Of a stretch of 64,000 bases of DNA, positions 16,498-33,129 are shown piece by piece (the stretch's first letter is position 1; each line of letters opens with the position of its first letter). The position numbers and the translations under genes are program-made. The notes beneath the pieces were generated by a model. The model saw only the letters and a program-made list of their open reading frames with translations. It was not told the origin of the DNA and did not search any database. The stretch lies in contig JAEPQH010000018.1 in the NCBI GenBank assembly GCA_017640605.1, positions 1-64,000 of the forward strand, given 5' to 3'. This DNA comes from Balneolaceae bacterium (lineage in GTDB: Bacteria; Bacteroidota; Rhodothermia; Balneolales; Balneolaceae).

Positions 16498-16998
16498 ATG
16501 GCGGGATATACCGAACTCTTACAAACTATGCTTGCAATGGTCATCGTCTCATTTCTGGTGATTAATGCAAATCGTGCAATACTTGTTAATACAGAGACCA
16601 TGGTTGAAGGTGAATTAGAAAATCAAGTAATAGCTATAGCACAGGATTTTATTGAAGAATCGAGATCAACCACATTCGATGCAGAAACCGTGGGTGGTAA
16701 CGTACCGGTTAATATTCCTGATGGATTTTCGAGCATCGGTCCTGGCAGCGGTGAAACCTCGAGAGCCGATTTTAACGACTTTGATGATTATGATGGCTGG
16801 ACTGAGACGATCATAGCCTCCGGTGGTATTGAATATGAAGTGAGTATTGAGGTTTCATACTTCAAAAACGGTGCACCAACCAACACTAAATCTACCTTAA
16901 AACAAATGACGGTAACCGTTTCTTCGGATGATCTTACCAACAATGGCACCACAAAAACTTATACATTTAAATTTTTAAGAAGCTTTTACGCAGATTGA
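16498..16998 (+). CDS. PilV-like minor pilin protein, leaderless (cassette 1)
   Basis: This 166-residue protein has one N-terminal hydrophobic helix (about residues 7-25) followed by an amphipathic helix and a soluble beta-rich domain, the architecture of type IV minor pilins. It lacks the basic leader and G/F cleavage site of classical prepilins and starts MAGYTELLQTML. If the initiator Met is removed, Glu falls at position 5, where mature type IV pilins carry their conserved Glu5. The position in a trio with PilW-like and PilX-like proteins supports a PilV-like role. It is paralogous to the protein at 18834-19253. The PilW-like gene follows after one base. A short dyad CGATA.TATCG lies upstream at 16466-16476. 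Confidence 0.75.
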   Translation: MAGYTELLQTMLAMVIVSFLVINANRAILVNTETMVEGELENQVIAIAQDFIEESRSTTFDAETVGGNVPVNIPDGFSSIGPGSGETSRADFNDFDDYDGWTETIIASGGIEYEVSIEVSYFKNGAPTNTKSTLKQMTVTVSSDDLTNNGTTKTYTFKFLRSFYAD

Positions 16999-16999
16999 T

Positions 17000-17614
17000 A
17001 TGGATTTAGGAGTAGTAATCAGTTATATCATTGCCGGAATTCTCATCGTCATCATCGTTACAGTTGGTTACAATGTAAATTACAGTAGCAACGAATTAAC
17101 TTTGCAAGAAACCCAAAAAAGTAAAGTAGGTGCTGTAATTGAAACATTGAATTATGATTTGCCAAAAATCGGATATAATCAAAATGCTTTACCCGATACA
17201 CTAATTCTACAGGCAGACTCGACATTAATCAGCTTTTACTCAAACATTGATAATAGTGCTGATGGCTCCTTAGAATTAATTACCTGGGAGTACACAAATG
17301 CAGAAATTACAGAAACAGAAAATCCTGATGATCACTATATTACCCGAACGATTAATGGGATAACCTCTACAATAGGTGGAGGAATCACTCGATTTCGAAT
17401 CAATTATTACGACGAATTAGGTTCAACCTCTCCCCTATCTGTTCCAATTTCTGCGGTTTCTAATAAATCACTAATAGATTCAATTGTTCAAATTGAAATT
17501 ATTATAGAAAGTGGTAGCGCTATTGGCTTGCAATATCTCGGAAATACAAATAAAAATTATATGGCCACTGCTTGGACAAAGCGATACTCGCCATCTAACC
17601 TGAATATAAATTAG
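17000..17614 (+). CDS. PilW-like minor pilin protein, leaderless (cassette 1)
   Basis: This 204-residue protein starts with a hydrophobic helix right at the N terminus (MDLGVVISYIIAGILIVIIV). It continues with a long amphipathic helix ending in a LNYDLPKIGYN segment that resembles the (L..DLR.AGY) signature after the helix of PilW. No prepilin leader is present. It is paralogous to 19256-19837, sharing the helix pattern, a DYY/DHY segment followed by R/T-rich strands, and a C-terminal W.KR segment before the end. Its start is one base after the preceding stop, and the PilX-like gene follows 8 bases later, so the trio is co-translated. Confidence 0.75.
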   Translation: MDLGVVISYIIAGILIVIIVTVGYNVNYSSNELTLQETQKSKVGAVIETLNYDLPKIGYNQNALPDTLILQADSTLISFYSNIDNSADGSLELITWEYTNAEITETENPDDHYITRTINGITSTIGGGITRFRINYYDELGSTSPLSVPISAVSNKSLIDSIVQIEIIIESGSAIGLQYLGNTNKNYMATAWTKRYSPSNLNIN

Positions 17615-17622
17615 GAGTTATT

Positions 17623-18726
17623 ATGGGAAGAGGAATGATAATAATGGCTTTAGGCTCCTTTCTGGTATTAGGCTTAGTAAAAACCAGTTTATTTGATCAG
17701 AGAGAACGTATTCAAGGATTCAATTCTGATTATGCGAAAGATATTCAAGCTAAAAATGTTGCCCATACAGCCATTCAATTGGCCATGGAGCAAATTAATG
17801 AAGATCCATCATGGCACCCAACCTCAGCTAATCCCTGGGTTCAGGAAATTGATGGAGCACATGTTGAATTATTTTATGAAGTATTAGCTACTGGGGCTAC
17901 CCCAACAGATCCAGATAGCATTAGAATATTCAGTAATTCTTGGTACGGCGGCCAGGGCTCTTTAGGTAGTAATTCATATAAAGCTGATTCCGAGACCCAT
18001 TCAATTATCAGTACCTATCTAAAAACGGGTTTACATTTTGTACCCGAACCAGCAGGTGGGCTTGGCTTAGCTAGTGGAAATTTCAGATTTAATATGAGTG
18101 GAAGTGCGACTATTAGTGGTAACGACGCCAGTGGAACTTGCGCCGATATACCTGCAGTTACTGTACCTACTTTTTCTGATTATACTGAAGTTCTAGCAGG
18201 CGCAAAATTATCAAATCTAGAAAGTGATGAAGATTTGATCTCCATTGACCCTGATATTTCATACAGCCCCGTTGATGAATTAATAGCTCGTTTAAGTAAC
18301 CAACCTGGTGTTGTAGAAGTTAGCGGTAATTATAAAGGAGATTTTGGCAGCGTTGATGATCCAGGTGTGTTTTTTGTTGATTCCTATGCAAAATTGACCG
18401 GTGGTGTCCCTGAAGGGTATGGGATTTTAGTAATTCGATCAGGGGGTGAACTGGAATATGAAGGGGCATTGAGTGTAGCTGGTAATTTCACTTTCAATGG
18501 GTTAATTATTTTTGAAAATGCTTTCGACTTTACTGGTAGAGGGACTCCTGATTTGAATGGTTCCGTACTAATTGGAAATACCCCCGGAAACAATACGACA
18601 CTTGATATTGATCTTGGGGGTAGTATTCAAATTCAGTACGATTGCGAAGCTATTGATTACGCAAGAGTTGCTTCTGCTTCTCATCTTAAACAAAATAGAT
18701 ATAGCAGAGTAAGTACATTTGAATAA
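17623..18726 (+). CDS. PilX-like minor pilin protein with autotransporter-like C-terminal domain (cassette 1)
   Basis: This 367-residue protein begins MGRGMIIMALGSFLVLGL, a short basic start and hydrophobic helix. An alanine-rich helix (residues ~40-60) follows, the pattern seen at the N terminus of PilX and GspK family proteins. The C-terminal half has polymer-forming beta-strand repeats (GILVIRSGGELEYEGALSV, GNFTFNGLIIFENA, LNGSVLIG), as often found in PilX-like proteins of non-proteobacteria. A clear AGGAG ribosome binding site lies at 17613-17617, unusual for this clade and repeated before the cassette 2 homologue. The gene is paralogous to 19847-21319. Confidence 0.75.
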   Translation: MGRGMIIMALGSFLVLGLVKTSLFDQRERIQGFNSDYAKDIQAKNVAHTAIQLAMEQINEDPSWHPTSANPWVQEIDGAHVELFYEVLATGATPTDPDSIRIFSNSWYGGQGSLGSNSYKADSETHSIISTYLKTGLHFVPEPAGGLGLASGNFRFNMSGSATISGNDASGTCADIPAVTVPTFSDYTEVLAGAKLSNLESDEDLISIDPDISYSPVDELIARLSNQPGVVEVSGNYKGDFGSVDDPGVFFVDSYAKLTGGVPEGYGILVIRSGGELEYEGALSVAGNFTFNGLIIFENAFDFTGRGTPDLNGSVLIGNTPGNNTTLDIDLGGSIQIQYDCEAIDYARVASASHLKQNRYSRVSTFE

Positions 18727-18768
18727 CAAATTCTAATGTACTTATCGGTTATCTACCTACTTATTAAA

Positions 18769-18794
18769 GTAAACTAATAGCATAATAAGTTTAC
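18769..18794. promoter_or_regulatory. Inverted repeat between pilin cassettes
   Basis: GTAAACT (18769-18775) and AGTTTAC (18788-18794) form a perfect 7-base inverted repeat with a 12-base spacer, in the 107-base gap between the two pilin-like cassettes. It may be an operator or a weak RNA hairpin. It is not followed by a T-run, so it is not a standard terminator. Confidence 0.45.
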
Positions 18795-18802
18795 GAATAG
18801 TA

Positions 18803-18832
18803 GATTTATTACAATAATAAAAGTAATAAATC
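18803..18832 (+). promoter_or_regulatory. Hairpin abutting the start codon of cassette 2
   Basis: GATTTATTAC (18803-18812) and GTAATAAATC (18823-18832) form a perfect 10-base inverted repeat with a 10-base spacer. It ends one base before the ATG at 18834. In RNA it would be an AU-rich stem occupying the usual ribosome landing region. It may tune translation of cassette 2 relative to cassette 1, or bind a protein as an operator. Confidence 0.5.
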
Positions 18833-18833
18833 A

Positions 18834-19253
18834 ATGAGCAGTTACGCTGAGTTAACATATTTGATTGGAGCGATGGTTATTTTTGGGTTTCTATCCTTAA
18901 ATACCGCACGAAGTTTCAACTCAAACCGACAGGCAATTTACCAAGCCGAAGCCGAATACCGTGCAATTGCTGTTGCTCAGGACGAATTGGATAAAGTGCA
19001 ATGGATATATGATTCCGACGAATTAGATCCAAGTAGTGGTAACTATGTATACTCAAGCTACCCTATTGAAGAAGTACATAATTACGGATCGAGTGATCAA
19101 TACAGTTCTACTTTTATCATAAATGGTACTTCAGAATTAATTGAGGATACCGGTTCGATGAAAAAATACCAGGTAACGGTTTCTGTACTCAATCAGAATG
19201 TAACACCCGAAGTATTTATTACCTTAGAATACGTTAAATCCTACACCTACTAG
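18834..19253 (+). CDS. PilV-like minor pilin protein, leaderless (cassette 2)
   Basis: This 139-residue protein has the same architecture as 16498-16998. The N terminus MSSYAELTYLIGAMVIFGFL is directly hydrophobic, with Glu at position 6 (position 5 after Met removal) and a Tyr two residues before it, exactly as in the cassette 1 protein. A helix (EAEYRAIAVAQDELDKVQ) and a short beta domain ending in EYVKSY follow, comparable to the FKFLRSFY end of its paralogue. Two bases separate it from the next gene. No prepilin peptidase or assembly ATPase gene is in the window. Confidence 0.75.
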   Translation: MSSYAELTYLIGAMVIFGFLSLNTARSFNSNRQAIYQAEAEYRAIAVAQDELDKVQWIYDSDELDPSSGNYVYSSYPIEEVHNYGSSDQYSSTFIINGTSELIEDTGSMKKYQVTVSVLNQNVTPEVFITLEYVKSYTY

Positions 19254-19255
19254 CC

Positions 19256-19837
19256 ATGAATGCAGGACTAGCCATAACATTTGTGATTGGTGGATTATTC
19301 ATGATTTCGATCCTGAATTTCAACGCTCAGGTTATAAATCAAACACAGGAACTAACACTTAACACCATCAACCAATCGAATTTAGACAACTTGGTGGATG
19401 TACTTGCAAACGATTTTAACAAGATTGGTTTTAACGCCGGCACAGCGGTCCCTTTTACTACAATAGGTGATCAAAATATAATTTTTCAGGCTGATGTGTA
19501 TGATAATGACAGCTATGGATCTACAAATATACGTTGGTATTTCGACACCAGTGATGCCGTAAACAGCACCAATCCAAACGATTATTATTTAAAAAGAGTG
19601 GGTCCGATTGGCACCAACTCGTACGGAACCATTGAGTTTCCGGTAGTTTATTTCGATTTGAATTACTACACAGCGGACGGTACTCCAACAACTACGTTGG
19701 CCTCTGTTAAAAAAATCGAAGTTGAATTAATGGTTGAAACAGTAGAACCATACACAGTTAATAACGGGAATCAGCAATATCCTAGATTAATCTGGAAACG
19801 AATTTTTGTACCGAACAATATCAACTTACCATATTAA
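19256..19837 (+). CDS. PilW-like minor pilin protein, leaderless (cassette 2)
   Basis: This 193-residue paralogue of 17000-17614 has an N-terminal hydrophobic helix (MNAGLAITFVIGGLFMISIL). The amphipathic helix ends in LANDFNKIGFNAG, equivalent to LNYDLPKIGYN in cassette 1. A beta-rich domain follows with NPNDYYLKR and a C-terminal LIWKRIF segment equivalent to TAWTKRY in cassette 1. It is the middle gene of the second trio. The shared order and conserved junction spacing show that the whole trio was duplicated as a unit. Confidence 0.75.
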   Translation: MNAGLAITFVIGGLFMISILNFNAQVINQTQELTLNTINQSNLDNLVDVLANDFNKIGFNAGTAVPFTTIGDQNIIFQADVYDNDSYGSTNIRWYFDTSDAVNSTNPNDYYLKRVGPIGTNSYGTIEFPVVYFDLNYYTADGTPTTTLASVKKIEVELMVETVEPYTVNNGNQQYPRLIWKRIFVPNNINLPY

Positions 19838-19846
19838 GGAGCAGTT

Positions 19847-21319
19847 ATGGGAAGAAGTTTATTATTCTTAGTAAGCGGACTTACAATTTTAACGGGGATT
19901 GTGCAGGTAAACAACCAAGACCGTGTGGCCGAAATACCTGTTGTAACTACCGATTATTACAAGGCGCAACAAGCCAGAAATCTGTCTAAAAGTTTAATCG
20001 ACAATGCGGTTGAAACGATGAAAGACAATAACAACTGGGTAGGCAGCATCGACATAGATGAGGTAGTGGATACCAAAGCTTTACTATCACGCTCGAATGA
20101 AGGTCGAAAAAAACTAAGCCTTGGATTAATGGAACTCGACGAAGTTATTGCTATTGAACAACAAACTGAAGAATTATTGGATCAATCCGGAATCACCATT
20201 CCAATTAATTTAGAAGGCTCACTTAGCAGCTATACCCAAGACAGCCAAAACAAACCGAACAATAGTGTAGGTAGTTGGGACGAATATAAAGTACTGCTGG
20301 TAAGTTCAAGCACATACGATGATATTGAAGTGACTACCGAAGTGTTGATGCAACGAGATTCCTTTAGTAAGTATTCCTACATGACTCAATCTGAGTTAGC
20401 TGCTAATGGCTCTACCATTTGGTTTATGGATCAGGATAACATTTATGGCCCAATCCATACCAATGGGCAATTCGCGATGTCTGGTGCACCCTCTTTTTAT
20501 GGATTGGTTACGAGCCCAAATATGTGGCGAGCTCACAGTACCAACCCAACAAATCCTAACTTTTATGGTGGAGAAAACTTCAACGCACCGCTAAAAAGTG
20601 AACCTACTAGTTACGAAATTAATCGACTTGTTGCTGCTGCTAACGATGGTGGGAAAAGATACTCAGGGGATATTGATGTAGATTTTTACTATGATTCAGA
20701 TCATGGCTATGCTGATATTTCTTATGGTGGCTCACCTGGGAATGGTTGTGCTAACTGGATGTGGTGGTGTACTCCCATTCCACCAACACCCCCCACTGTT
20801 GAAACGGTGAACCTGGCCGACATTAATGGTGTGATTTCTACCGACGGTGAAATTGACGTAGAAGGTGAAGTTAGCGGGAGTGTTACTTTGCATTCAGAGG
20901 ATAGAATCGAAATTATGGGAGATATCACGTACCGCGTTAACCCCCTTGCCGATTCAACGTCTGCCGATCTACTCGGTTTGGTAAGCGAAGGAGATGTTGT
21001 AGTTGATCGATATGCCCATTCGGCTAATGGTTCGCAAGATTTAACCATTCATGCATCTATTGTAGCGCTAAATACCTCTTTTACCGTAGAAAACTATAAT
21101 TCTGGTGGTAGCAAAGGTACACTAAATATGTTAGGTGGAATCATTCAACAAAATCGTGGACCAGTTGGCACCTTCTCCGGAAGTACGGTAGTTTCCGGCT
21201 ACATCAAGAATTACCAGTACGACAACCGGTTAAAGGCAACTATTCCACCATCATTCCCAAGAGAAAGTGTTTTCTCAATTGTATACTGGAAAGACGAAGT
21301 AAACAAAAGCAATAACTAA
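19847..21319 (+). CDS. PilX-like minor pilin protein, enlarged (cassette 2)
   Basis: This 490-residue paralogue of 17623-18726 starts MGRSLLFLVSGLTILTGIV and continues with a YYKAQQARNLSKSLIDNAVE helix. It is preceded by AAGGAG at 19836-19841, the same strong ribosome binding site as in cassette 1. The middle contains FMDQDNIYGPIHTNGQFAMSG, and the C-terminal part has GEVSGSVTLHSEDRIEIMGDITY and repeated strands, a polymer-forming fold. A CANWMWWCTPIPPTPP segment (around 20748-20790) has two Cys that could form a disulphide. It probably sits at the tip or base of a pilus-like fibre, by analogy with PilX/GspK; this is inference. Confidence 0.75.
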   Translation: MGRSLLFLVSGLTILTGIVQVNNQDRVAEIPVVTTDYYKAQQARNLSKSLIDNAVETMKDNNNWVGSIDIDEVVDTKALLSRSNEGRKKLSLGLMELDEVIAIEQQTEELLDQSGITIPINLEGSLSSYTQDSQNKPNNSVGSWDEYKVLLVSSSTYDDIEVTTEVLMQRDSFSKYSYMTQSELAANGSTIWFMDQDNIYGPIHTNGQFAMSGAPSFYGLVTSPNMWRAHSTNPTNPNFYGGENFNAPLKSEPTSYEINRLVAAANDGGKRYSGDIDVDFYYDSDHGYADISYGGSPGNGCANWMWWCTPIPPTPPTVETVNLADINGVISTDGEIDVEGEVSGSVTLHSEDRIEIMGDITYRVNPLADSTSADLLGLVSEGDVVVDRYAHSANGSQDLTIHASIVALNTSFTVENYNSGGSKGTLNMLGGIIQQNRGPVGTFSGSTVVSGYIKNYQYDNRLKATIPPSFPRESVFSIVYWKDEVNKSNN

Positions 21320-21320
21320 C

Positions 21321-21716
21321 GTGCGAACACTATCTTATTTAGTATTTTTTATTACTCTTTTTATTTCAACCCCAGGCTATCTTCAAGCTCAAACTTCGAT
21401 CACGTTTAGTGTAAATCTGAAGCCACAGCTTGAAGATAGCACTTTTATACCCGGTCGAGATCAAATCAAAATTGTTGGCGATCTCTATCCAATCAACACT
21501 CCCAACCCCTATTATCTGGTAGATGAAGCACCTCGGGACAGCATCTACTCCATCACCGTACGGTTTTCATCCAGATTTAGAAATCAGATGCTCAATTACA
21601 ATTTTGAGATGACATCTAATTATGTACGCCTTACCGAAGTACTGCCACGTTCAATTCAACTACAAGGCAGAGAAATCGAGCTAGACCCTTTCTATTTCAA
21701 TGCCTTCGCGTGGTGA
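21321..21716 (+). CDS. Small secreted beta-sandwich protein
   Basis: This 131-residue protein starts at GTG 21321, one base after the PilX-like stop, so it belongs to the same transcript. It has a signal peptide (to about residue 23, ending YLQAQ). The mature part begins TSITFSVNLKPQLEDSTFIPGRD.I.IVGDLYP, resembling the short 'VTF.V.M......F....D.V.V.G' beta-sandwich domains found in many Bacteroidota secreted proteins. I do not recognise a precise family. Its role in the pilin cluster is unknown. Confidence 0.7.
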   Translation: MRTLSYLVFFITLFISTPGYLQAQTSITFSVNLKPQLEDSTFIPGRDQIKIVGDLYPINTPNPYYLVDEAPRDSIYSITVRFSSRFRNQMLNYNFEMTSNYVRLTEVLPRSIQLQGREIELDPFYFNAFAW

Positions 21717-24113: not shown

Positions 24114-24220
24114 ATGTATTGTTTTATAAATCTTATAATACTCTATATAAAATAAAGATTGGTACAATTTTCCATTTTTTTAGTTAAGTTTTGACCACAT
24201 TGATATATCATCCTACTATA

Positions 24221-25057
24221 ATGAAGAATATTCGACTTTACGCGGTTATTGCTTTTTTTGTGCTGTCCCCTCTTTATTTAAATGCGCAAGTCACCATTGC
24301 ACCTACAAACATGTTCATTGATGGTAATGCCAGATTTGGAACATACATGGTGATAAATAATTCGAATGAAACGCAGGAAATTTCTATTGATTTCCTTTTT
24401 GCATACAGCCAAACTGACGAACAAGGCAACAGAAGTATAATACAAGATGACTCTGCAGCGGCCGAGCAATATTCAATCGCTGAATTCATTCGTGCTTTTC
24501 CTCGAAACTTCACACTAGCTTCTGGTCAAAGGCAAGTTGTACGACTGAGATTAAATCCACCAAATGACTTAGAAGATGGAACCTATTGGGCTAGAATTAA
24601 AACAGGTTCTACTCCAGAATCACCTCCATTAGAACTCCAATCAAATAATGCGGTAGCTGCACGTGTAGGTATTAGAGTTGAGCAAGTAACCGGACTTTTT
24701 TTTAAAAAAGGGAATACTACTACTGGAATAGAAGTAACAGAAATATCTACAGAGTACGATCAACTAACTGATAAGTTAAACGTTTATATTGATATAAACA
24801 GAACTGGCAACAGTCCTTTTCTCGGTTCTATTACAACATCATTAATAAATGAAAATGGTGAAATAGTTCGCGAAAGTTTTATTTCTACCTCGATTTATTT
24901 TGATGGGGTACAAAAGAGTGAATTTGATATTGCGGATATCCCAAATGGACAATATACCATAAGAGTGCAATTTGAAAGTTCACGTGCAGACATTCCTAGT
25001 TCAGATATTATCCAAATGCCTACTGTCATCGAAACAACAACATTTACCAAGCGTTGA
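24221..25057 (+). CDS. PapD-like periplasmic pilus chaperone
   Basis: This protein (278 residues from the ATG at 24221) has a signal peptide ending LYLNAQ. The upstream TTG at 24191 would add a non-signal-like extension. The N-terminal immunoglobulin-like domain shows the PapD pattern: VTIAPTNMFIDG, a Y.VINNSNETQEISIDF strand, then FPRNFTLASGQRQVVRLR and L.DGTYWARIKT. In the family this domain caps pilus subunits by donor-strand complementation and delivers them to the usher. The position of PapD Arg8 appears to be Asn here by my hand alignment, while an Arg in AARVGIRVE may replace Lys112. Its stop overlaps the usher start in TTGA, so the two are coupled. Confidence 0.88.
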   Translation: MKNIRLYAVIAFFVLSPLYLNAQVTIAPTNMFIDGNARFGTYMVINNSNETQEISIDFLFAYSQTDEQGNRSIIQDDSAAAEQYSIAEFIRAFPRNFTLASGQRQVVRLRLNPPNDLEDGTYWARIKTGSTPESPPLELQSNNAVAARVGIRVEQVTGLFFKKGNTTTGIEVTEISTEYDQLTDKLNVYIDINRTGNSPFLGSITTSLINENGEIVRESFISTSIYFDGVQKSEFDIADIPNGQYTIRVQFESSRADIPSSDIIQMPTVIETTTFTKR

Positions 25058-28050
25058 TTCTTTGGAAAACAAAAAACTTATTTATTTTTCTCTTCATTTT
25101 CGTATGCATGCAGCTTCAAAGCACGCATGTAAACGCACAAGATGAAGATTTTTTTGAAGTCTACCTAGACTTTAAGCATCGTGGTGTTATCAATAATGTT
25201 GTAATCTCCTATTACGATGGTGAACAATTCTTTTTACCATTGGTTGAGTTGTTCAATCTATTCCAAATTGAAGCTAATGTAAATGGTTTAGTGATTTCGG
25301 GCAGATATTCAATTGAACAAACCCCTTATTCAATTGACCTTTCTCGTCCTTCAATTAGTTTTAATGGGAAAACCTATGAATTAACTTCCGATCAATATTA
25401 CATTACTGAGCTTGATTACCATTTCCCGCCTAAACTTTTTAGTGAGATTTTCGGATTAAATTTCTCTGTTGATATAAATAACCTTTCCTTACGCCTAGAG
25501 ACCAATGAAGAAATACCAATCATCGCAAAGACATTAAGGGATCAAAAACGAAGGTTAGCTAACAATAATCGAGTTCAAACGGATTTTTATCCTCTTGAAT
25601 ATGATCGAGAATATAAAATTTTTGATGGTGGATTCATGGATTACTCGATGTCAAGTACTATACAACCAGACATTACAACTTTTAGTTATAATAGCGCAGT
25701 TGGTCTACAACTTGCAGGTGGTGATTTACAGGGAAGTTTCTTTGGAAATATTTCGTCTGATGTTTCTGCATTAGAAACTAACAACTTACGCTGGAGAACT
25801 ATCATAAGAAATAAACCTTGGATCAGTAATATTACAATTGGGCAATCCAATATGGACGGTGTTTTAATGAATCGATACACGGGTATCCGTTTAACTAATG
25901 ACCCTGTTGAACCAAGACGTTTATTTGATGAATTTGAAATACAAGGAACCACTTTTCCTCAATCTGAAATAGAATTGTATCTCAACAATGGTCTAATTGA
26001 TTTTCAACAAGCTGATGAGTTAGGCAATTATCGCTTTTTAACCCCTTTATACTATGGCTCCACACAGCTTGATCTTAGAATTTATGGACCTACTGGGCAA
26101 ATAGTAACTCGTTCATCTAGAGTGCAAGTTCCATTCACATTTAATCCAAAAGGGGAGTTTAATTATAGGATTAATGCCGGGGTATTAGATAATGCATTTA
26201 TTGGTAGTACAGTCCGTAACAGAATGTTTCAAGCGAATGGTTCGTATGGTGTAACTAAATGGCTTACATCAAAATTTGGGGTTGAATATTTTACCGAAGA
26301 GCTTGGGAGAGAAACTCCATATTTTACAGGTACATTATCATCCCGTATTTCTTCAAGTTATATTTTATCTGTAGAAGGTGTAACTAATGCGTATTACAGA
26401 GCTACTCTAAATGCGATTTATCCAAGCGCAGCAAGTATTAACTTTGATTATACTAATTTCTACGCCGGAGAGAGTATTTTTAATACTACTAATAATGACC
26501 AACAACTAACTAGCTCAATATTCGTACCTTTAAGATTATTCAAACTTCCATTTAATTTGAGGTTATCTAATTTTTCTCGCTCTAGAGAAGGAACTACTAC
26601 AAATAGCATCCGCTTTGATGTAAACTCACGCATAAATAAATTAAACTTAAGAGTTGGCTATTCTGATCGTTTGATTGATACTTTCAATCCATTTAATTCA
26701 ACACAAGGTAATACATTAGAAGGTTCAGCGACTTATACTATATCGCGTAATCCAAACATTCCAACTGTATTAAGAGGTACTTTTTTAAGGGCTCAACTAA
26801 GGTTCTTACCTGAACAGAATGAGCTTCAAAACGCCGAATTTCTTTTTTCGAAAAATGTATTCCAAGTTGGAAGGCTTCAAGTTTCTGTTGGTCGCAATTT
26901 TATTTCAGAATTCAATACCATAAGAGCAAACTTTGTTATTGATTTCAAAAGAATCAGAAGCAATACTACTGTTACAACTATCAGAAACAGTATTAGTACT
27001 TCACAAAACATTCGAGGGTCAGTTGGTTATGACTCGAATTTCAAAAATTTTATTCTAACAAGTAGAGATCAAGTAGGGAGGTCTGGAGCAGCTATCCAAA
27101 TTTTTGCTGATAGAAATGGAAACGGAACTTTTGATGAAGATGATGAGCTACTTCCTGAAGTTAGTATGAGAATTGGAAGAAATGGTTCACAATACATGTA
27201 TAAAAATGGGGTATTGTATTACACTCAAATGCGACCCTATTTTAGATACAATATGGAGATGAACACCTCCACTATTAAAAACCCTATGCTTGTTCCTGGT
27301 TTGGATAAATTCTCTATGATAACTGATCCTAATAGTTTTAAGCCTATAAGTATTCCCTTTAATATAAGTGGTGTTATGGAGGGAATTGTTGAACGGCAGT
27401 ACAACGACGGCCAAACTCAAGGTATTGGTGGTTTAAAAGTTTTACTCAACGAAAAAGGAGAATCAGAAACAAAAGAGTTGAGAACATTTTCGGATGGTAG
27501 TTTCTACGAATACCCTATCTCTCCAGGGCAATACAATATTAAAGTTGATCCAACACAACTCAGTTTGCTTCAAACCAGATCAGTTCCAGAGGAAATTGAT
27601 TTTGAAGTAAAAGTTACCCCCGATGGTGATTACGTGGAAGGAATTAATTTTAGATTATTACCGCTTGAAGACGCCGAATCATCCCAAGAAGATAGTCTTG
27701 CCGCGCTCACTATTGCACAGGTTACCGACGAGATAAAATCGTCGCCAGAAATATTAGAATATTCTCAGGAAGTATTTAAAGAAGTTGATAATGCTTTAAG
27801 GCTCATAATCAAAGCTCAAAACGCCTTTTATTCTAACAACATAGACTTAGCCTTCCGCTATGTTAACGAATCATTAGAACTTTTTGAAACTGCACAAGCA
27901 CACGCTTTAAAGGGAAGTTTTTATTATTTTGAAGGTAACATCGATCAGGCGCAACGACATTGGGAACAGGCACTCCGATTTAACCCCGACCTTGTAATTC
28001 CGGATATGGAAGTACTTGAAGAGAGGGTGAATAGGCGTGCATCAGATTAA
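25054..28050 (+). CDS. Outer-membrane fimbrial usher with C-terminal TPR domain
   Basis: This 998-residue protein starts at TTG 25054 and has a signal peptide ending THVNAQ. Residues ~30-170 form an N-terminal region of short strands (VYLDFKHRGVINNVVISYY). A long beta-barrel region (about 180-770) is interrupted by a plug-like domain with QGTTFPQSEIELYLNNGLI and GNYRFLTPLYYGSTQLDLRIYGP.G, a classic usher signature. A carboxypeptidase-regulatory-like domain follows (about 770-880). The last ~100 residues are TPR (NNIDLAFRYVNESLELFET.QAHALKGS.YY..GNIDQAQRHWEQAL), unusual for ushers, which are normally ~800-870 residues without TPR. It should form the outer-membrane pore for DUF4402 subunits. 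The TPR module recurs in the lipoprotein at 29904-30431. Confidence 0.88.
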   Translation: MILWKTKNLFIFLFIFVCMQLQSTHVNAQDEDFFEVYLDFKHRGVINNVVISYYDGEQFFLPLVELFNLFQIEANVNGLVISGRYSIEQTPYSIDLSRPSISFNGKTYELTSDQYYITELDYHFPPKLFSEIFGLNFSVDINNLSLRLETNEEIPIIAKTLRDQKRRLANNNRVQTDFYPLEYDREYKIFDGGFMDYSMSSTIQPDITTFSYNSAVGLQLAGGDLQGSFFGNISSDVSALETNNLRWRTIIRNKPWISNITIGQSNMDGVLMNRYTGIRLTNDPVEPRRLFDEFEIQGTTFPQSEIELYLNNGLIDFQQADELGNYRFLTPLYYGSTQLDLRIYGPTGQIVTRSSRVQVPFTFNPKGEFNYRINAGVLDNAFIGSTVRNRMFQANGSYGVTKWLTSKFGVEYFTEELGRETPYFTGTLSSRISSSYILSVEGVTNAYYRATLNAIYPSAASINFDYTNFYAGESIFNTTNNDQQLTSSIFVPLRLFKLPFNLRLSNFSRSREGTTTNSIRFDVNSRINKLNLRVGYSDRLIDTFNPFNSTQGNTLEGSATYTISRNPNIPTVLRGTFLRAQLRFLPEQNELQNAEFLFSKNVFQVGRLQVSVGRNFISEFNTIRANFVIDFKRIRSNTTVTTIRNSISTSQNIRGSVGYDSNFKNFILTSRDQVGRSGAAIQIFADRNGNGTFDEDDELLPEVSMRIGRNGSQYMYKNGVLYYTQMRPYFRYNMEMNTSTIKNPMLVPGLDKFSMITDPNSFKPISIPFNISGVMEGIVERQYNDGQTQGIGGLKVLLNEKGESETKELRTFSDGSFYEYPISPGQYNIKVDPTQLSLLQTRSVPEEIDFEVKVTPDGDYVEGINFRLLPLEDAESSQEDSLAALTIAQVTDEIKSSPEILEYSQEVFKEVDNALRLIIKAQNAFYSNNIDLAFRYVNESLELFETAQAHALKGSFYYFEGNIDQAQRHWEQALRFNPDLVIPDMEVLEERVNRRASD

Positions 28051-28051
28051 A

Positions 28052-29890
28052 ATGCACAGAATACGTCACATATTTGACTCTATGCTTGCCAAAATTTTAA
28101 CCAATTTTGGCGTGAAATTACTAGCTCTTCTATTTTTAACAACTTGTTTCCTTGCATCTACCGACATTAGCGCTCAAACAGCATTTGATCCATCAAGTTC
28201 TCAATCTCTTGAACTACGCGTTGCCAATCTGGAACAACAGTATGATTCCCAAATCATCCAAATTCTTTCAAATTACTTTAATCGAAAAAAATTTTTTATC
28301 GATGTAAATATTAATGCTGAGCTGATCGATCAAACGATAGGTACTACCAGTAATCAAGTAGTAGAATCGAGTCAACAAGAGCAGAATCTATTCATGCCGG
28401 GCCTTCCCTTCTTGCCTGAACAAAATCTTCGTCAGCCTGCTAACCGTAACCGACAGCCTGAAACTATTGTAAACGAAAATACCATAAAAACGCTGCGTAT
28501 CGTTAACATGAGCGTTAATATTTATGCAGATACTTCGGTTACTACCGCTCAGCTTGAGTTAATGCGATTTATTACAGGAATCGCAGTAAAAATCAACGAG
28601 GCTCGAGGTGATGAAATCACCATATCTCAATTAGCCATCCCAGATTATACTGAGGCCCCCGAACCTGTTACGGCTACTACTGTTGTACAACAGCCTACTG
28701 CGCCCGATTACAACTCCATCTACACTTATATTCCTGCTTTGGCATTAATGCTGCTATTTGGGCTTACACTTTTGTTTAACAAATTGATGAACAAGCCCCA
28801 GACCCAAATCCCCCTTCGGGATTATCGGGATACATTTAAAAATGATATGGGCTTGCAACAACAGTCGGCACAACCTTTTTCCAGCACTGAGCAAGTAAAG
28901 GGTGATATTGAGCAAAGTGATGAGGACATGACTACCGAAGATATTGTGAATGCATTTTTTACTAAGCCTGAGGAGATTGCCACTATTTTCAGGTATTGGT
29001 TAAGTGAAGAAGAAAACGGGGCTAAAAAAGCTGCTGAATATTTAGTGGCTGTCGACAAACATCTGCTCCGAACTTTAAAAAAGGAACTTCATCCCGAAGA
29101 TTACGACAGCCTGAGCGATGCTTTATTGGAACTCGAGGAATTAGCGCCAGAGCGGCGAGCAGAAATTGTAGAAGAGTTTGCACGAATGCTTCAACAAGGT
29201 GCTAAACAAACCGTATCTGAGAAAAAACGAAGTAAATTTTCATTATTCAAATTCCTCGATCACATTTCGGATAAGCATATTCTCACGTTACTAGAAACAG
29301 AAGACAGCCTCTCCGGTGCTTTTATACTTCAGTATATCCCGGATGATAAAGCTGCATTACTGATCGAAAAATTAGACAAAGAAATTGCCGCTAAAATCAT
29401 GTTGCATATGGCATCGTTGAATAATTTAACCAACGATCAGCAGCAAAAGATATCGTCAGAACTCTTCGACAAAGCCATGGATTTAGTGGAAGCTGAACGA
29501 AGCGAGCAATATGGTGCTGAACACCTCTATCCTATTTTAGAACGACTTCCGGTACACGAACAACAACGTTATATTGATGAGTTAAAAGCTACAGGCTCGA
29601 TAGTTGGAGCCATCCTGGAAAAGCAGTTTATTACTATCGATCGTTTACCTGAGTTAAGTGATGAAATCATTAAAAAAGCCGTTCGAACACTTAATACAGA
29701 AACATTACTAGACGCAATTGTTGGGTTACCTCCTCAAGTTGTGGATCGAATTTTATCTGCGCGACCTACGCGAGAACAACGTTTATTACGCATGGAACTT
29801 GAAGAGCTTCAAGGAACGCCCGGTCGCCAAACCGAATATGCTAAGGCTCTCTTAATGAATTCTATCCGCAAGAATGCGAATGACAAATAA
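28052..29890 (+). CDS. FliF/FliG-like single-chain rotor protein
   Basis: Residue numbers count from the possible GTG at 28037 (617 residues). The ATG at 28052, one base after the usher stop, is my chosen start; the ATG at 28082 is also possible. A signal-anchor (~17-40) precedes a region like the FliF C-terminal periplasmic RBM3 (about 66-203: LEQQYDSQIIQILSNYF, FIDVNINAEL, RIVNMSVNIYAD, then the FliF/YscJ-type ending ARGDEITISQLAIPD). A second membrane helix is at 229-249. The cytoplasmic part resembles FliG: N-like ~298-385, M-like ~400-485, C-like ~495-612. R579, E587 and R597 occupy positions like the torque-helix charges Arg281, Asp289 and Arg297 of E. coli FliG by hand alignment. It would form an inner-membrane ring turned by the adjacent MotA/MotB. 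No other flagellar gene is nearby. Confidence 0.82.
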   Translation: MHRIRHIFDSMLAKILTNFGVKLLALLFLTTCFLASTDISAQTAFDPSSSQSLELRVANLEQQYDSQIIQILSNYFNRKKFFIDVNINAELIDQTIGTTSNQVVESSQQEQNLFMPGLPFLPEQNLRQPANRNRQPETIVNENTIKTLRIVNMSVNIYADTSVTTAQLELMRFITGIAVKINEARGDEITISQLAIPDYTEAPEPVTATTVVQQPTAPDYNSIYTYIPALALMLLFGLTLLFNKLMNKPQTQIPLRDYRDTFKNDMGLQQQSAQPFSSTEQVKGDIEQSDEDMTTEDIVNAFFTKPEEIATIFRYWLSEEENGAKKAAEYLVAVDKHLLRTLKKELHPEDYDSLSDALLELEELAPERRAEIVEEFARMLQQGAKQTVSEKKRSKFSLFKFLDHISDKHILTLLETEDSLSGAFILQYIPDDKAALLIEKLDKEIAAKIMLHMASLNNLTNDQQQKISSELFDKAMDLVEAERSEQYGAEHLYPILERLPVHEQQRYIDELKATGSIVGAILEKQFITIDRLPELSDEIIKKAVRTLNTETLLDAIVGLPPQVVDRILSARPTREQRLLRMELEELQGTPGRQTEYAKALLMNSIRKNANDK

Positions 29891-29903
29891 AGTACAGGTA
29901 AAA

Positions 29904-30431
29904 ATGAAACATAGACCTGCTTTTGCGTTTTTTTTGATTCTTTCGGTACTCTTGATTCATTGTGCATCCAGCAATCAATCCATTGATCCGATAGTTGAAC
30001 AAGGCACGATCTCGCCGGAAGATTCCCTTCAACTGGCAATACAAGATAGTTTGGAACAAGCCCAGGCTAAAGAAGAAGAACTTCGTGAAGCTCTCATCGA
30101 ATTATATAAAGATGAGATCTATTCAAGATATCAAGCACAAGCGAATACCCTTACAAACTACTATATACTTGCTCAACAGCACTTTTATACCGGCGATTTT
30201 GAAAATGCGCTCTTCCTGATCAACCGCGCTGCACTTATCAAAGAAAATGCTGATGTGTTAGCCTTACGTGGTAGTATTTATCTTGGATTGGGATATATCA
30301 ATGAATTTGTGAGTCACTGGCGAAGAGCTCTTGAAATGGACCCTTCTGTTCCCATACCTTCTTCCACCTACATTATTCAGCAACTTCAGAATAATGGATT
30401 AATCGATGAAAATTTAACAAAGAGCTTTTAA
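29904..30431 (+). CDS. TPR-containing lipoprotein
   Basis: This 175-residue protein starts at ATG 29904, which gives a lipoprotein signal peptide (MKHRPAFAFF..) with lipobox LLIHC and Cys20; upstream starts at 29874 and 29880 would only lengthen the n-region. A charged coiled segment (QAKEEELREALIELYKDEI) is followed by a TPR pair: AQQHFYTGDFENALFLINRA, then LALRGSIYLGLGYI and HWRRALEMDPSVPIP. This TPR matches the C terminus of the usher at 25054-28050, including the HW..AL..(N/D)P core. It lies 13 bases after the rotor gene and 7 bases before the motA-like gene. I infer a periplasmic link between motor and usher. Confidence 0.85.
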   Translation: MKHRPAFAFFLILSVLLIHCASSNQSIDPIVEQGTISPEDSLQLAIQDSLEQAQAKEEELREALIELYKDEIYSRYQAQANTLTNYYILAQQHFYTGDFENALFLINRAALIKENADVLALRGSIYLGLGYINEFVSHWRRALEMDPSVPIPSSTYIIQQLQNNGLIDENLTKSF

Positions 30432-30438
30432 TAACTCT

Positions 30439-31236
30439 ATGCGTACATCCATACTCAATATTCTATGTTTTCTAATTTCTTCGTTGATTTTGGTTTGGGG
30501 TGCACTTCTGGTAACCGGGTATACGCAATACGATTTAATTCCCTCTCGATTCGCTTTTTTAAATCTGCCAAGTTTAGCCATCGTTTTTGGCGGAATAACT
30601 GCCAGTGTATTTATTAGCTATCCTTTCAATAGTGTAATTAAGGCGCTCGTTGAAAGCACTAAACTGTTTTCTTACAGCACCATCACCCACGAGGTGTTAG
30701 AAGAAGACATACAGCGGGTAATGGACTGGCAAAAGATGATTAAGCAAAATAAATACGAGGCAGTTACTCAGCTCAGCGAAGAATATGCTGATCGTTTCGA
30801 GGGGTATTTATTTTCGATTTTGGATACCAATTATGACACCGAAGATCTTCGGGAGCTTGGGGAGATCAATATTGAAGAAAACTACTCTCGCCAGCAAATG
30901 GTGAATCAAATTATTGCTAGTATGGGCAAGACTTCTCCTGTTTTCGGGATGTTAGGAACCCTTTTTGGCTTGATCGTAATATTATCAGGGTTTAGTGAAG
31001 TGGAGTCGTTATTGAGTGGGTTAGGTGCTGCTTTAATGACCACATTATATGGTATTCTGATTGGTAATTTTATTTTCACGCCAATGGCTAAAAAGATGAA
31101 TAATGTGGCTTCACTACGGTATTTTAGAGAGAAATTGATCCTGGAGGGAATTATTCTAATCGAAGAACAAAAAACTTCGCTACAAATTTACGATAAGCTT
31201 CAAGCACATATGCGCCGAAATAAAAACATGATTTAA
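30439..31236 (+). CDS. MotA-like stator protein
   Basis: This 265-residue protein has four predicted membrane helices. The second helix region holds LPSLAIVFGGITASVFISYPF, typical of MotA/PomA, and a cytoplasmic loop of ~95 residues follows. The third and fourth helices carry SPVFGMLGTLFGLIVIL and LIGNFIFTPMAKKM, with Pro167 and Pro215 at the positions of E. coli MotA Pro173 and Pro222. In the family MotA with MotB conducts protons or sodium and pushes the rotor's FliG. The large cytoplasmic loop and helix order favour MotA over the ExbB/TolQ branch, though both share the fold. It is followed 9 bases later by the MotB-like gene. Confidence 0.9.
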   Translation: MRTSILNILCFLISSLILVWGALLVTGYTQYDLIPSRFAFLNLPSLAIVFGGITASVFISYPFNSVIKALVESTKLFSYSTITHEVLEEDIQRVMDWQKMIKQNKYEAVTQLSEEYADRFEGYLFSILDTNYDTEDLRELGEINIEENYSRQQMVNQIIASMGKTSPVFGMLGTLFGLIVILSGFSEVESLLSGLGAALMTTLYGILIGNFIFTPMAKKMNNVASLRYFREKLILEGIILIEEQKTSLQIYDKLQAHMRRNKNMI

Positions 31237-31245
31237 GCGGCTGTT

Positions 31246-33129
31246 GTGAAGAAAAAGAAACCAATAAGAATTAAATATTCGCTTTTTCCACTACCGGATG
31301 AGGAAGCTGATGATGATGAGAGCTGGCAAGTAAGTTATCTTGATATCATTACAATCGTATTGGGGTTTCTGATTATTTTGCTTTCTGTCTCACAAATTAC
31401 GAAGTCAGAATTTTCTTCTCTTTCATCCATTTTTGGTAAACTAGCGGATGAAACTGAGTTTTTAACCACTCCCATAGGAGCCATTGAACGAGAATTATTC
31501 GGATTGTTGGAGCCCGAAATTGAAGCCGGTAATCTGGAAATCATTCGTGATTTAAATGATCTAAGAATTCGTTTTAAAAGTGACGACCTTTATGATCCGG
31601 GCAGAGCTCAATTAGATCCGGATTCTGAACAACTTCTTAATACTGTGTTGATAGCTTTGCAACAGGTTAAGTACAACGATTTCTTAATTGATGTTGAAGG
31701 ACATACCGACAATACTCCGATCTCATCGGTGGCTTACCCCTCAAATTGGGAGCTTTCAACTGCAAGAGCAGCAAACGTAGTTAAGTATTTTAATGATGCT
31801 GGAATCCCTGCCAACCGACTTAAAGCATCTGGTTATGCAGATTCTCGTCCGGTAATTGAATATGATTCTTTAGGTTTTCCATTCGCGGCCAGCAAAGAAA
31901 AAAATCGCCGAGTGGTACTAAGGCTTTATTACTCATCTGATAATTTAAATGAAGAAATTCTTACACAACCGGAAGCTGATGACGTATTGTTAATTGCCGA
32001 AACTGAATCAGGGACTCCTGAAAGTTTGAGTAATGATATTCCAGGTATTTCTGAGCTCCCTCCTCCCGATCCGAATGAAAACGTTGTGATATTAGCTGAA
32101 GAGCCAGCTTTACTTACGGTGATGGAAGAAAACCGAATCCGGAATCAGTTAGCAGCTGAACAACAAGATGAAACACCAGCAACTGACGATGTTAATTCAG
32201 ATTCAGGTCGACAACAAGCTAACGAAACTGATGAGCCTCAGAACGATCGTGAAAGTGTTACACAAGAGCCTGTTTCTCAAGCTGAAGAAGAACTAGAACC
32301 AGTTGAGCAATCAGAGCCGGAACCATCTGCTACAGAAATTCCATCATCAAGTAATGCAATGCCATCGTTGTTGCGAGTGGATGCTCGATGCCAGTATTCG
32401 GTGCAACTTGGTGAGTTTTCTGCTTTACAAACGGCATTTCAACGAGCTGATGCGATAGAATCATCAAACTTAACGGATGTGATACTCACTTATAACACCA
32501 ACGAATATTCGGTTAGAACATCTCCTACTTCTTCGTTTACGGAGGTTGTAAGCTTACGAAATGAATTATCATCAAGAATTAATGATAAAAGTGTAAGTGT
32601 TGTTCATCAGTGTTACAACAATACCATTCAGCGGCCGAAACCAGTAAAATATCTCATTCAATTTGGTGCATTTCAAACTCGTGCTAATGGCTTAGATTAC
32701 ACCATCGAATTGTTAGATCAATACGGTGTACAAGCTTATATGAATCGGGTTTCTGATACTTTTAATGTGCTTACCGGACCATATGAGTCGCGAGAAGTAG
32801 TTCTAGAACAATTACGCACTTTCAGGGAGATGGGAATTTCTTCAAATCTATTTATTCGTCACCAACCGGAAACAGCTGCTACGTATAAATATGCTTACCA
32901 AATTCAAGTTGACGAACTGAGTAACCGACAAGAGGCCAATGAACTAGCACAACAAGTACGATCGAGAACAGGCATAAATACCCGCGTAGAAGAACTAGTT
33001 AGTGGTCGATATTCTGTAATGACGGGACAATCAGTAAATCGAAATGAAACTCAAACCATTTTCAATCGATTATTGAATTCCGGCTTTTCAATAGAACCTA
33101 TTATTTTTTACTTAGAGTATATTCCTTAA
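31246..33129 (+). CDS. MotB-like stator protein with OmpA domain and SPOR-like repeats
   Basis: This 627-residue protein starts at GTG 31246. The single N-terminal helix has W.VSYLDIITIVLGFLIILLS, with Asp33 at the place of the essential Asp32 of E. coli MotB. Residues ~115-225 are an OmpA/MotB peptidoglycan-binding domain (VEGHTDNTPISS, NWELSTARAANVVKYF, LKASGYADSRPV, NRRVVLRL). An acidic, proline-rich linker (~230-375) leads to three tandem SPOR-like repeats (from ~383, ~465 and ~545; cores YSVQLGEFSAL, YLIQFGAFQTR and YQIQVDELSNR). MotB proteins are usually ~300 residues without SPOR. The repeats may bind denuded septal glycan or an accessory factor. This is the last gene of the motor operon. 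Confidence 0.9.
   Translation: MKKKKPIRIKYSLFPLPDEEADDDESWQVSYLDIITIVLGFLIILLSVSQITKSEFSSLSSIFGKLADETEFLTTPIGAIERELFGLLEPEIEAGNLEIIRDLNDLRIRFKSDDLYDPGRAQLDPDSEQLLNTVLIALQQVKYNDFLIDVEGHTDNTPISSVAYPSNWELSTARAANVVKYFNDAGIPANRLKASGYADSRPVIEYDSLGFPFAASKEKNRRVVLRLYYSSDNLNEEILTQPEADDVLLIAETESGTPESLSNDIPGISELPPPDPNENVVILAEEPALLTVMEENRIRNQLAAEQQDETPATDDVNSDSGRQQANETDEPQNDRESVTQEPVSQAEEELEPVEQSEPEPSATEIPSSSNAMPSLLRVDARCQYSVQLGEFSALQTAFQRADAIESSNLTDVILTYNTNEYSVRTSPTSSFTEVVSLRNELSSRINDKSVSVVHQCYNNTIQRPKPVKYLIQFGAFQTRANGLDYTIELLDQYGVQAYMNRVSDTFNVLTGPYESREVVLEQLRTFREMGISSNLFIRHQPETAATYKYAYQIQVDELSNRQEANELAQQVRSRTGINTRVEELVSGRYSVMTGQSVNRNETQTIFNRLLNSGFSIEPIIFYLEYIP

Follow-up and report, generated by a model that had tools for sequence, protein, structure and literature searches.

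The window, a stretch of 64,000 nucleotides at the start of contig JAEPQH010000018.1 of Balneolaceae bacterium, contains two V-W-X gene trios whose products are very probably minor pilins (GspI-GspJ-GspK type) at the tip of a machine that builds type IV pilus-like filaments from leaderless subunits. Computational analyses identified the leaderless starts of the proteins, the conserved gene order, the predicted folds, a PilB/PilC/PilT/PilQ operon in the same genome and the lack of a detectable prepilin peptidase. From these we infer the assembly of the proteins into one filament, their route of insertion, the removal of the initial Met and an acid-base pairing between subunits.

All six frames of the trios are located on the + strand, start with ATG and lie where an earlier reading, made from the DNA letters only (the sequence-only reading), had placed them. 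V1 (166 aa, 16498..16998, MAGYTELL...) and V2 (139 aa, 18834..19253, MSSYAELT...) are leaderless PilV/GspI-like minor pilins; W1 (204 aa, 17000..17614, MDLGVVIS...) and W2 (193 aa, 19256..19837, MNAGLAIT...) are leaderless PilW/GspJ-like minor pilins, the folds of V1 and W1 being assigned from the V2 and W2 models. X1 (367 aa, 17623..18726, MGRGMII...) and X2 (490 aa, 19847..21319, MGRSLLF...) are leaderless and PilX/GspK-like: in other families the PilB/PilC operon includes members of the X1 subfamily, and X2 contains DUF4900 as well as a beta-helix stretch resembling bactofilin. A gene for a 131-aa protein without assigned role (21321..21716, + strand), with a signal-peptide-like start as judged by eye, is located directly 3' of X2 in 33 of the 41 loci described below. 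Tyr4 and Glu6 were present in both V proteins (MAGYTEL in V1, MSSYAEL in V2) and AGGAG preceded both X genes, as had been noticed before. The junctions of 0-3 bases described in the same reading were found between V and W (gaps of 1 and 2 bases) but not between W and X (8 and 9 bases). Its tandem duplication of the trio can be kept as an ancient paralogy only: identities of 23% between V1 and V2 and of 24% between W1 and W2 rule out a recent event. Each V, W and X subfamily of the two trios was separately conserved in other genera.

Of the 128 genomes of the order searched with X2, 40 encoded relatives, and therefore the trios are not a chance feature. Start regions were compared at 41 loci, namely the window's own and 40 others, read as 20-kb stretches, some of which ended within the neighbourhood. 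These loci provided 56 V, 58 W and 61 X frames, one of 62 X frames having been set aside for lack of its start; the counts include near-copies, such as L043/L062 and L054/L072, and ignore kinship. Residue 6 was D/E in 53 of the 56 V, Gly4 occurred in 47/58 W, and all 61 X started with MG[RK]. A few W starts were mis-picked (L055, L056, L053), the true start being likely GTG or another Met. In 31/56 V, 35/58 W and 40/61 X at most five codons separated the start from the upstream in-frame stop, which is too close for a missed upstream start codon; this possibility was thus ruled out. An ATG, GTG or TTG further upstream in frame was seen for four of the 56 V, for four of the 58 W, three of which are mis-picked rows, and for one of the 61 X; it was not conserved in any group.

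Hence the proposal that the trio proteins have no prepilin leader was borne out by their V, W and X relatives in the order, none of which showed a conserved one. V, W and X, as well as the MGQQQ pilins described below, had a hydrophobic tract but showed no conserved class III leader. The leaderless trio was also found in other families of the window's phylum (L181, L183, L187), in KSB1, in a Calditrichota MAG and in MAG SpSt-1156. A contig of the cultured Gracilimonas mengyeensis DSM 21985 (L103) carries both trios. The sequence-only reading had named leader-bearing homologues as evidence against itself. The relatives of the order showed no conserved leader, but one X homologue (L116), encoded in a pilus operon of Omnitrophota, comes after genes for pilins with leaders, and Peptidase_A24 is present in that genome.

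V2 and W2 were modelled with AlphaFold2 (pLDDT 83.6 and 78.8, respectively) and the Foldseek hits were re-ranked with VIA-align. For the W2 model, the first ten rows (Z 10.8-11.8) comprised only GspJ/XcpW/EpsJ entries, a pseudopilus model and the Thermus pilin TTHA1219, and the next unrelated row had a Z of 4.1; the values were 11.6 for XcpW (127 residues aligned, rmsd 3.5), 11.3 for EpsJ and 11.2 for GspJ. The V2 model matched XcpV (Z 9.0, 84 residues aligned, rmsd 2.1), GspI (8.8) and EpsI (8.2), followed by two further pilins (7.4 and 6.6) and then by an unrelated row (5.4). Each model has one long N-terminal helix (residues 3-55 in W, 2-56 in V). Residues 2..199 of the pseudopilus-model chain 9a1f_S aligned to residues 1..193 of W; 9a1f is presumably numbered as the mature protein, and therefore the start of W corresponds roughly to the N-terminus of a mature pseudopilin. 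With Foldseek alone no match at E <= 0.001 was obtained for either model (best E at least 0.1), and the fold evidence is thus a re-ranking of weak hits, in which pseudopilins were separated by VIA-align only. Predicted fold and gene order together support the assignment of V as GspI/XcpV-like and of W as GspJ/XcpW-like.

The profile link to minor pilins suggested as a check was not found in Pfam for V and W, for which the link consists of predicted fold and gene order. Pfam and NCBIfam searches with the six trio proteins yielded only noise, except for DUF4900 in X2 (E 1.1e-9), which was also present in 31/31 relatives. No pilin family was obtained from Pfam for 47 V and 46 W relatives, PDB sequences queried by X2 itself or by profiles of V, W and X yielded nothing relevant, and no Pfam pilin profile matched the MGQQQ pilins. 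The naming of the three proteins as PilV/PilW/PilX-like is retained, since the fold models place V with GspI and W with GspJ, and X is homologous to the pilus-operon protein of L116.

PilB and PilC, the search for which had also been recommended, are both encoded elsewhere in the window's genome (G000), in one operon with two leaderless pilins (MGQQQL...), PilT, PilM/N, PilO and PilQ. The operon matched the profiles T2SSE (E 2.7e-99 and 6.1e-34), T2SSF, Secretin (E 6.5e-27) and MshEN; the assembly ATPase, the polytopic platform protein and, for diderms, the secretin expected of the type IV filament superfamily are thus all encoded in this genome. The trios are located on contig C16 and the operon, which has no trio of its own, on C26. 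Six genomes from other families of the order (G100, G103, G105, G106, G109 and G125) carry the trio between the PilB and PilT genes of the PilB/PilC operon, and G313 and G373, outside the class, likewise have it within that operon. T2SSF was detected in 37 of the 40 X-bearing genomes of the order versus 50 of the 88 others (Fisher p 3e-5), the three X-bearing exceptions (G047, G108, G117) being drafts, 84-94% complete. The likely partner of the trios is the PilB/PilC operon and not the neighbouring usher-motor operon; the trios on C16 would serve the operon on C26, although in the window's family they have left it.

As for PilD, neither Peptidase_A24 nor A24_N_bact nor N_methyl was detected in G000, a genome 99.84% complete. 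Among the 128 genomes of the order, N_methyl was found in 16 and A24 in 10, being absent from 118 (positive controls, 12/14), and 73 of the 87 genomes with T2SSF had neither. A24 was absent from 140 of the 156 genomes of the class with an MGQQQLL pilin and present in 16; outside the class it was absent from 49/55 MGQQQLL genomes and present in 6/55, this set including G395, which was kept for its MGQQQLL pattern, probably due to chance, with no pilin or PilC match in the 3-kb locus L148. G155, whose A24 match was below the family cut-off, was counted as having the peptidase. Two (G541, G543) of the five non-Omnitrophota X genomes searched have A24. In G006 and G032 leader-bearing pilins occur but no A24 was found; therefore the search can miss the gene, or the gene can be lost. 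An artefact of draft genomes was ruled out by the completeness of G000 and by the 140 of 156 genomes without A24.

Where A24 does occur in the order, it goes together, among the matches listed, with a second, higher-scoring canonical PilC (T2SSF bits at least 99): it was present in 8 of 11 such genomes versus 2 of 117 (p 5e-9), in a post hoc test on genomes chosen by eye among those matches. A leader-bearing pilin was found beside or near the canonical PilC in 4/4 loci opened (L090, L091, L178, L179). The proposed skipping of prepilin peptidase is thus probably correct: a conserved leader, Peptidase_A24 and N_methyl are all missing, yet PilB, PilC, PilT, PilQ and leaderless pilins are encoded.

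The neighbourhood of the trios showed a recurring order, T9SS giant - trio(s) - small subunits - chaperone - usher, with usher and chaperone in 18 of the 41 loci, a T9SS giant in 17 and a FliF/FliG fusion in 7. The sequence-only reading had taken this position as a hint of a surface structure shared with the T9SS and usher-motor proteins; the idea was not supported, the trio being found also without usher and, elsewhere, inside the PilB/PilC operon. T9SS or chaperone-usher families were matched by none of the six trio proteins in Pfam and NCBIfam; the trios are only neighbours of these systems and were ruled out as their components by homology. The trios of the window's family could have left pilus service and become a complex anchored in the inner membrane and belonging to a composite surface apparatus, as their recurring company and their location outside the PilB/PilC operon would allow. 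The other parts of such an apparatus would be a chaperone-usher fibre, the T9SS giants and FliG/MotA/MotB-like proteins. We regard this as unlikely, given that at L042, L044 and L046-L048 the 20-kb stretches contain a trio with the 131-aa gene and lack an usher, and that a full PilB/PilC/pilin operon, without its own trio, was kept in the same genome. It is somewhat less unlikely that the operon encodes a pseudopilus like that of type II secretion, with the trio as its tip: the nearest folds are T2SS pseudopilins (XcpV/XcpW and EpsI/EpsJ), but the second, PilT-like ATPase of the operon points to retraction. The T2SS is not known to retract.

Two further alternatives concern the proteins themselves. 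The trio might consist of single-helix membrane proteins with beta domains, pilin-like in composition only, as the missing sequence profile link and the weak Foldseek values would allow. This is extremely improbable in view of the GspI match for V and the GspJ match for W in the corresponding gene order, of W scores well above those of unrelated rows and of the trios inside PilB/PilC operons in other families. Alternatively, a micro-leader ending in Gly (MG in the pilins and X, MNxG in W) may be cut by an unrecognised peptidase. The Gly2 of every X, the MG start of the pilins and the Gly4 of most W agree with this, but only 14/56 V have Gly within residues 2-4, the genome has no A24 or A24_N_bact, and 2-4 residues are fewer than the 6-26 aa of the leaders described in the consulted part of PMC4471445. 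A cut of this kind is very unlikely.

The Glu at position 5, expected by the sequence-only reading to appear as in mature type IV pilins upon loss of Met, agrees with the frequent D/E6 of V but requires a Met removal that residue 2 allows in 30 of the 53 V with D/E6. Residue 2 governs the removal of Met, and Met is expected to stay before Asn; 22/56 V start with Met-Asn, and 30/56 combine D/E6 with a residue 2 that normally permits removal. In other phyla, some V proteins have lost the acid. At that position it is nearly always missing from W and is missing from X, the third in gene order, where no D/E was found within residues 3-12 of any of the 61 proteins.

For the leaderless pilus-like machine that we favour, the ribosome would start at the already mature N-terminus, and SRP/Sec or YidC would then place the first helix in the inner membrane, its N-terminus on the inside. 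Where residue 2 permits, Met would be trimmed by methionine aminopeptidase, the pilins and X beginning with Met-Gly. V, W and X would associate via their helices and cap the filament, into which PilC and PilB would draw leaderless major pilins (MGQQQL...), and PilT would retract these through PilQ; neither prepilin peptidase nor N-methylation would be needed. A contact between the conserved acid at residue 6 of V and Arg/Lys3 of X, which is conserved too, may replace that of Glu5 with the N-terminus.

More broadly, type IV filament machines probably include a whole class that is free of prepilins; in the window's family its trios would have been duplicated and moved beside a chaperone-usher locus. 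The class would span the window's phylum plus the KSB1 and Calditrichota relatives, with the translation start setting the mature N-terminus of major (MGQQQLL...) and minor pilins, and the duplicated trios might be exchangeable filament tips. If so, leader processing is not required for filament assembly, and annotation pipelines that seek prepilin signals overlook whole pilus systems. The role of the free N-terminus with Glu5 would then become testable, given a natural system that manages with Met/Gly and another charge pattern.

According to the consulted parts of PMC4471445 and PMC6668835, a class III leader, ending in Gly ahead of a hydrophobic tract, and its dedicated peptidase are defining and universal for type IV pili and T2SS. 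Among open-licence PubMed Central titles and abstract starts, no leaderless or naturally peptidase-independent type IV pilin was described, which is weak evidence of novelty. For Melioribacter roseus, the part of PMC3534657 consulted reports pilT, pilQ, pilB and pilC, with pilA and pilD not found; its authors considered the pil set probably incomplete, and leaderless pilins are not named there. By this description the M. roseus genes probably belong to the same leaderless system, which would explain genomes reported with pilB/C/Q/T but without pilA/pilD. In Cytophaga hutchinsonii (Bacteroidetes), a T4P-like secretin/ATPase/platform cluster has been described as a putative T2SS (PMC5553014, consulted in part); unlike the system described here, it is of the canonical type, encoding the Peptidase_A24 protein CHU_3197.

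The trios share with GspI-GspJ-GspK (XcpV-XcpW-XcpX) of the T2SS the gene order, the predicted folds of V and W and a large third member, X. Unlike T2SS pseudopilins, they have no leader, Gly-1 cut site or prepilin peptidase, and X2, unlike GspK, carries DUF4900 and the bactofilin-like stretch. The operon resembles that of the type IVa pilus in bringing together PilB, PilC, PilT, PilM/N-like and PilO-like proteins, PilQ and small pilins; it differs in that no PilD was found, its pilins open with MGQQQL at the start codon, its PilM/N-like protein is one chain and a cNMP-binding protein is part of it.

Both V-W-X trios (V1-W1-X1 and V2-W2-X2; PilV-, PilW- and PilX-like genes) are present in the window at 16498-21319, exactly where the sequence-only reading had placed them. 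All six frames start with ATG, immediately followed by a hydrophobic helix; V and W are separated by 1 and 2 bases and W and X by 8 and 9 bases in the two trios, and AGGAG lies upstream of both X genes. The window is positions 1-64000 of contig C16 of the genome G000, a 3.74-Mb draft, 99.84% complete. Balneolaceae MAGs are near relatives, with 85% identity for X2 in JAEPNO010000001.1.

The X2 query found matches in 40 of the 128 genomes of the order Balneolales. Forty fetched loci (up to 20 kb each) and the window gave a sample of 41 loci, in which 56 V, 58 W and 62 X frames were assigned by iterated profiles. V frames start with M-[NST]-[DG]-Y-S-[DE], residue 6 being D or E in 53/56; W frames start with MN-x-G-I (Gly4 in 47/58) and all 61 X frames having their start begin with MG[RK]. 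Sequence 5' of the V, W and X starts is not conserved and an in-frame stop is often found within five codons, so that most of these frames cannot code for a leader. DUF4900 was present in 31/31 X2 relatives and a bactofilin-like stretch in 14/31. One X2 relative (L012, G022:C11:141286-142407) has one internal TAA in the aligned span. Directly 3' of X2, a gene for a 131-aa protein of unassigned family (21321-21716, + strand) is kept in 33/41 loci, and also in loci lacking the usher.

AlphaFold2 models of W2 (pLDDT 78.8, 27 sequences) and V2 (pLDDT 83.6, 26 sequences) both showed one long N-terminal helix (residues 3-55 and 2-56, respectively) and a beta sheet. Foldseek with the two models gave no significant match; the fold evidence is a re-ranking of the first 1000 Foldseek matches. 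For W2, ranks 1-10 were XcpW, EpsJ, GspJ, Thermus TTHA1219 and a pseudopilus model (Z 10.8-11.8), rank 11 being an unrelated protein (Z 4.1). GspI-type proteins took ranks 1-3 for V2 (Z 8.2-9.0); the next two rows were a Thermus competence pilin (Z 7.4) and S. sanguinis PilA (Z 6.6), and the first unrelated row had Z 5.4. By these modelled folds, V is GspI/PilV-like and W is GspJ/PilW-like. X occupies the GspK/PilX place beside them, structural modelling having covered V2 and W2 only.

The likely main setting of the trios is a pilus operon outside the window, on contig C26 of G000 (locus L081), rather than the usher-motor operon. This operon codes for two small pilins (starts MGQQQLLLVILVTIIVG... 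and MGQQQLMLLLIV...), PilC (T2SSF), PilB (T2SSE 9.7e-99, MshEN), a PilT-like ATPase (T2SSE 3.8e-34) and a secretin (6.5e-27); PilM/N-like and PilO-like proteins were named from position and a weak PilN match (E 0.051). It also includes a gene for a cyclic-nucleotide-binding protein (L081 8932-9435, - strand, E 6.7e-12); such a gene is a repeated member of leaderless pilus operons across the order, hinting at second-messenger control. The family of the window keeps the trio apart from the PilB/PilC operon. G103, G105, G106, G109 and G125 share the arrangement pilin(s)-PilC-PilB-V-CRP-W-X-PilT-PilMN-PilO-PilQ, within the extent of the stretches, and G100 has PilB-CRP-V-W-X. Outside the class Rhodothermia the trio lies inside the leaderless operon in G313 and G373, and is divergent and adjacent in G361. 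Among 21 loci from a scan of named genomes, those of KSB1, Calditrichota, an Actinomycetota-labelled MAG and SpSt-1156 have leaderless trios; several adjoin PilQ-, PilO-, PilM/N-, PilT- or PilB-like genes. Locus L183 (8070-9432, +) has MGQQQ pilin genes three in a row; the first and second match in the residues displayed, and the major pilin may have been duplicated recently. Other families of the order also carry leaderless pilin-like genes of another, more distant kind (starts MGQVLLSLGA..., MIQADLIV..., MGKYSILL...; L053 11364-13918, -; L052 8458-10246, +).

Within the window, chaperone-like, usher-like, FliG-domain, TPR, MotA/ExbB-like and MotB-plug/OmpA/SPOR genes form one run (24191-33129, +), in which flagellar-type motor parts adjoin the usher. 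The usher-like protein ends in TPR; the FliG-like protein carries the N, M and C domains of FliG and also weakly matches the FliF C-terminus. Chaperone and usher genes were found in 18 of the 41 loci and a T9SS giant in 17. From gene proximity, this neighbourhood may form a joint apparatus with the trios.

Searches of G000 with the Peptidase_A24 and A24_N_bact profiles gave no match, nor did a search for N_methyl prepilins. In the order, Peptidase_A24 occurs in 10/128 genomes and N_methyl prepilins in 16/128; 73 of the 87 T2SSF-bearing genomes have neither. The leaderless pilin start MGQQQ[LF][LF] was found in 156/244 genomes of the class, versus 4/244 with a reversed control pattern; A24 was present in 16 of these 156 and absent from 140. 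In a phylum sample of 394 genomes the pattern occurred in 127, 55 of them outside the class, and 49/55 lacked A24. In some genomes of the order a canonical system, its pilins leader-bearing, exists separately (L090, L178, L179). Where A24 occurs, it accompanies a second PilC with a higher T2SSF score (8/11 such genomes versus 2/117 others; Fisher 5e-9, post hoc). Counter-examples are G006 and G032, two of the genomes with the canonical system, which have the higher-scoring PilC and leader-bearing neighbours yet no A24 match, and G541 and G543, which have leaderless trios and A24 together. The central proposal of pilin-like subunits that skip the peptidase is supported by the modelled folds, by gene order, by the machinery and by the lack of a peptidase, and the trios are very probably minor pilins of a leaderless type IV filament. 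In one Omnitrophota locus, an X relative lies within an operon of leader-bearing pilins (L116; GFTLVEIM..., FTLIEVM...), which suggests an origin for the family.

In such a filament the start codon would itself define the mature N-terminal end. Removal of Met is usually permitted by Gly, Ser, Thr, Ala or Val at residue 2, and not by Asn. MGQQQ pilins and X start with Met-Gly; residue 2 of V is Ser, Thr, Ala or Val in 31/56, Gly in one more and Asn in 22/56, and 51/58 W start with Met-Asn. By this rule Met could be lost from the pilins, X and the V proteins with a permissive residue, and would be retained in Met-Asn V and W. The earlier expectation of Glu exactly at position 5 therefore fits roughly half of the V proteins, and the acid of the others would stay at residue 6. 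X has Arg or Lys at position 3 in 61/61 and no acid at residues 3-12; the V acid may contact this base.

No description of leaderless pilins was found in the open-licence papers searched. In reviews, a class III signal peptide and the peptidase that cuts it are the defining features of such machines (PMC4471445, PMC6668835). MSH loci without their own peptidase are noted in genomes with one elsewhere (PMC6668835), and in Nanoarchaeota no peptidase was detected (PMC4471445). For M. roseus, pilT, pilQ, pilB and pilC are reported as present and pilA and pilD as absent (PMC3534657), a set for which leaderless pilins would account.
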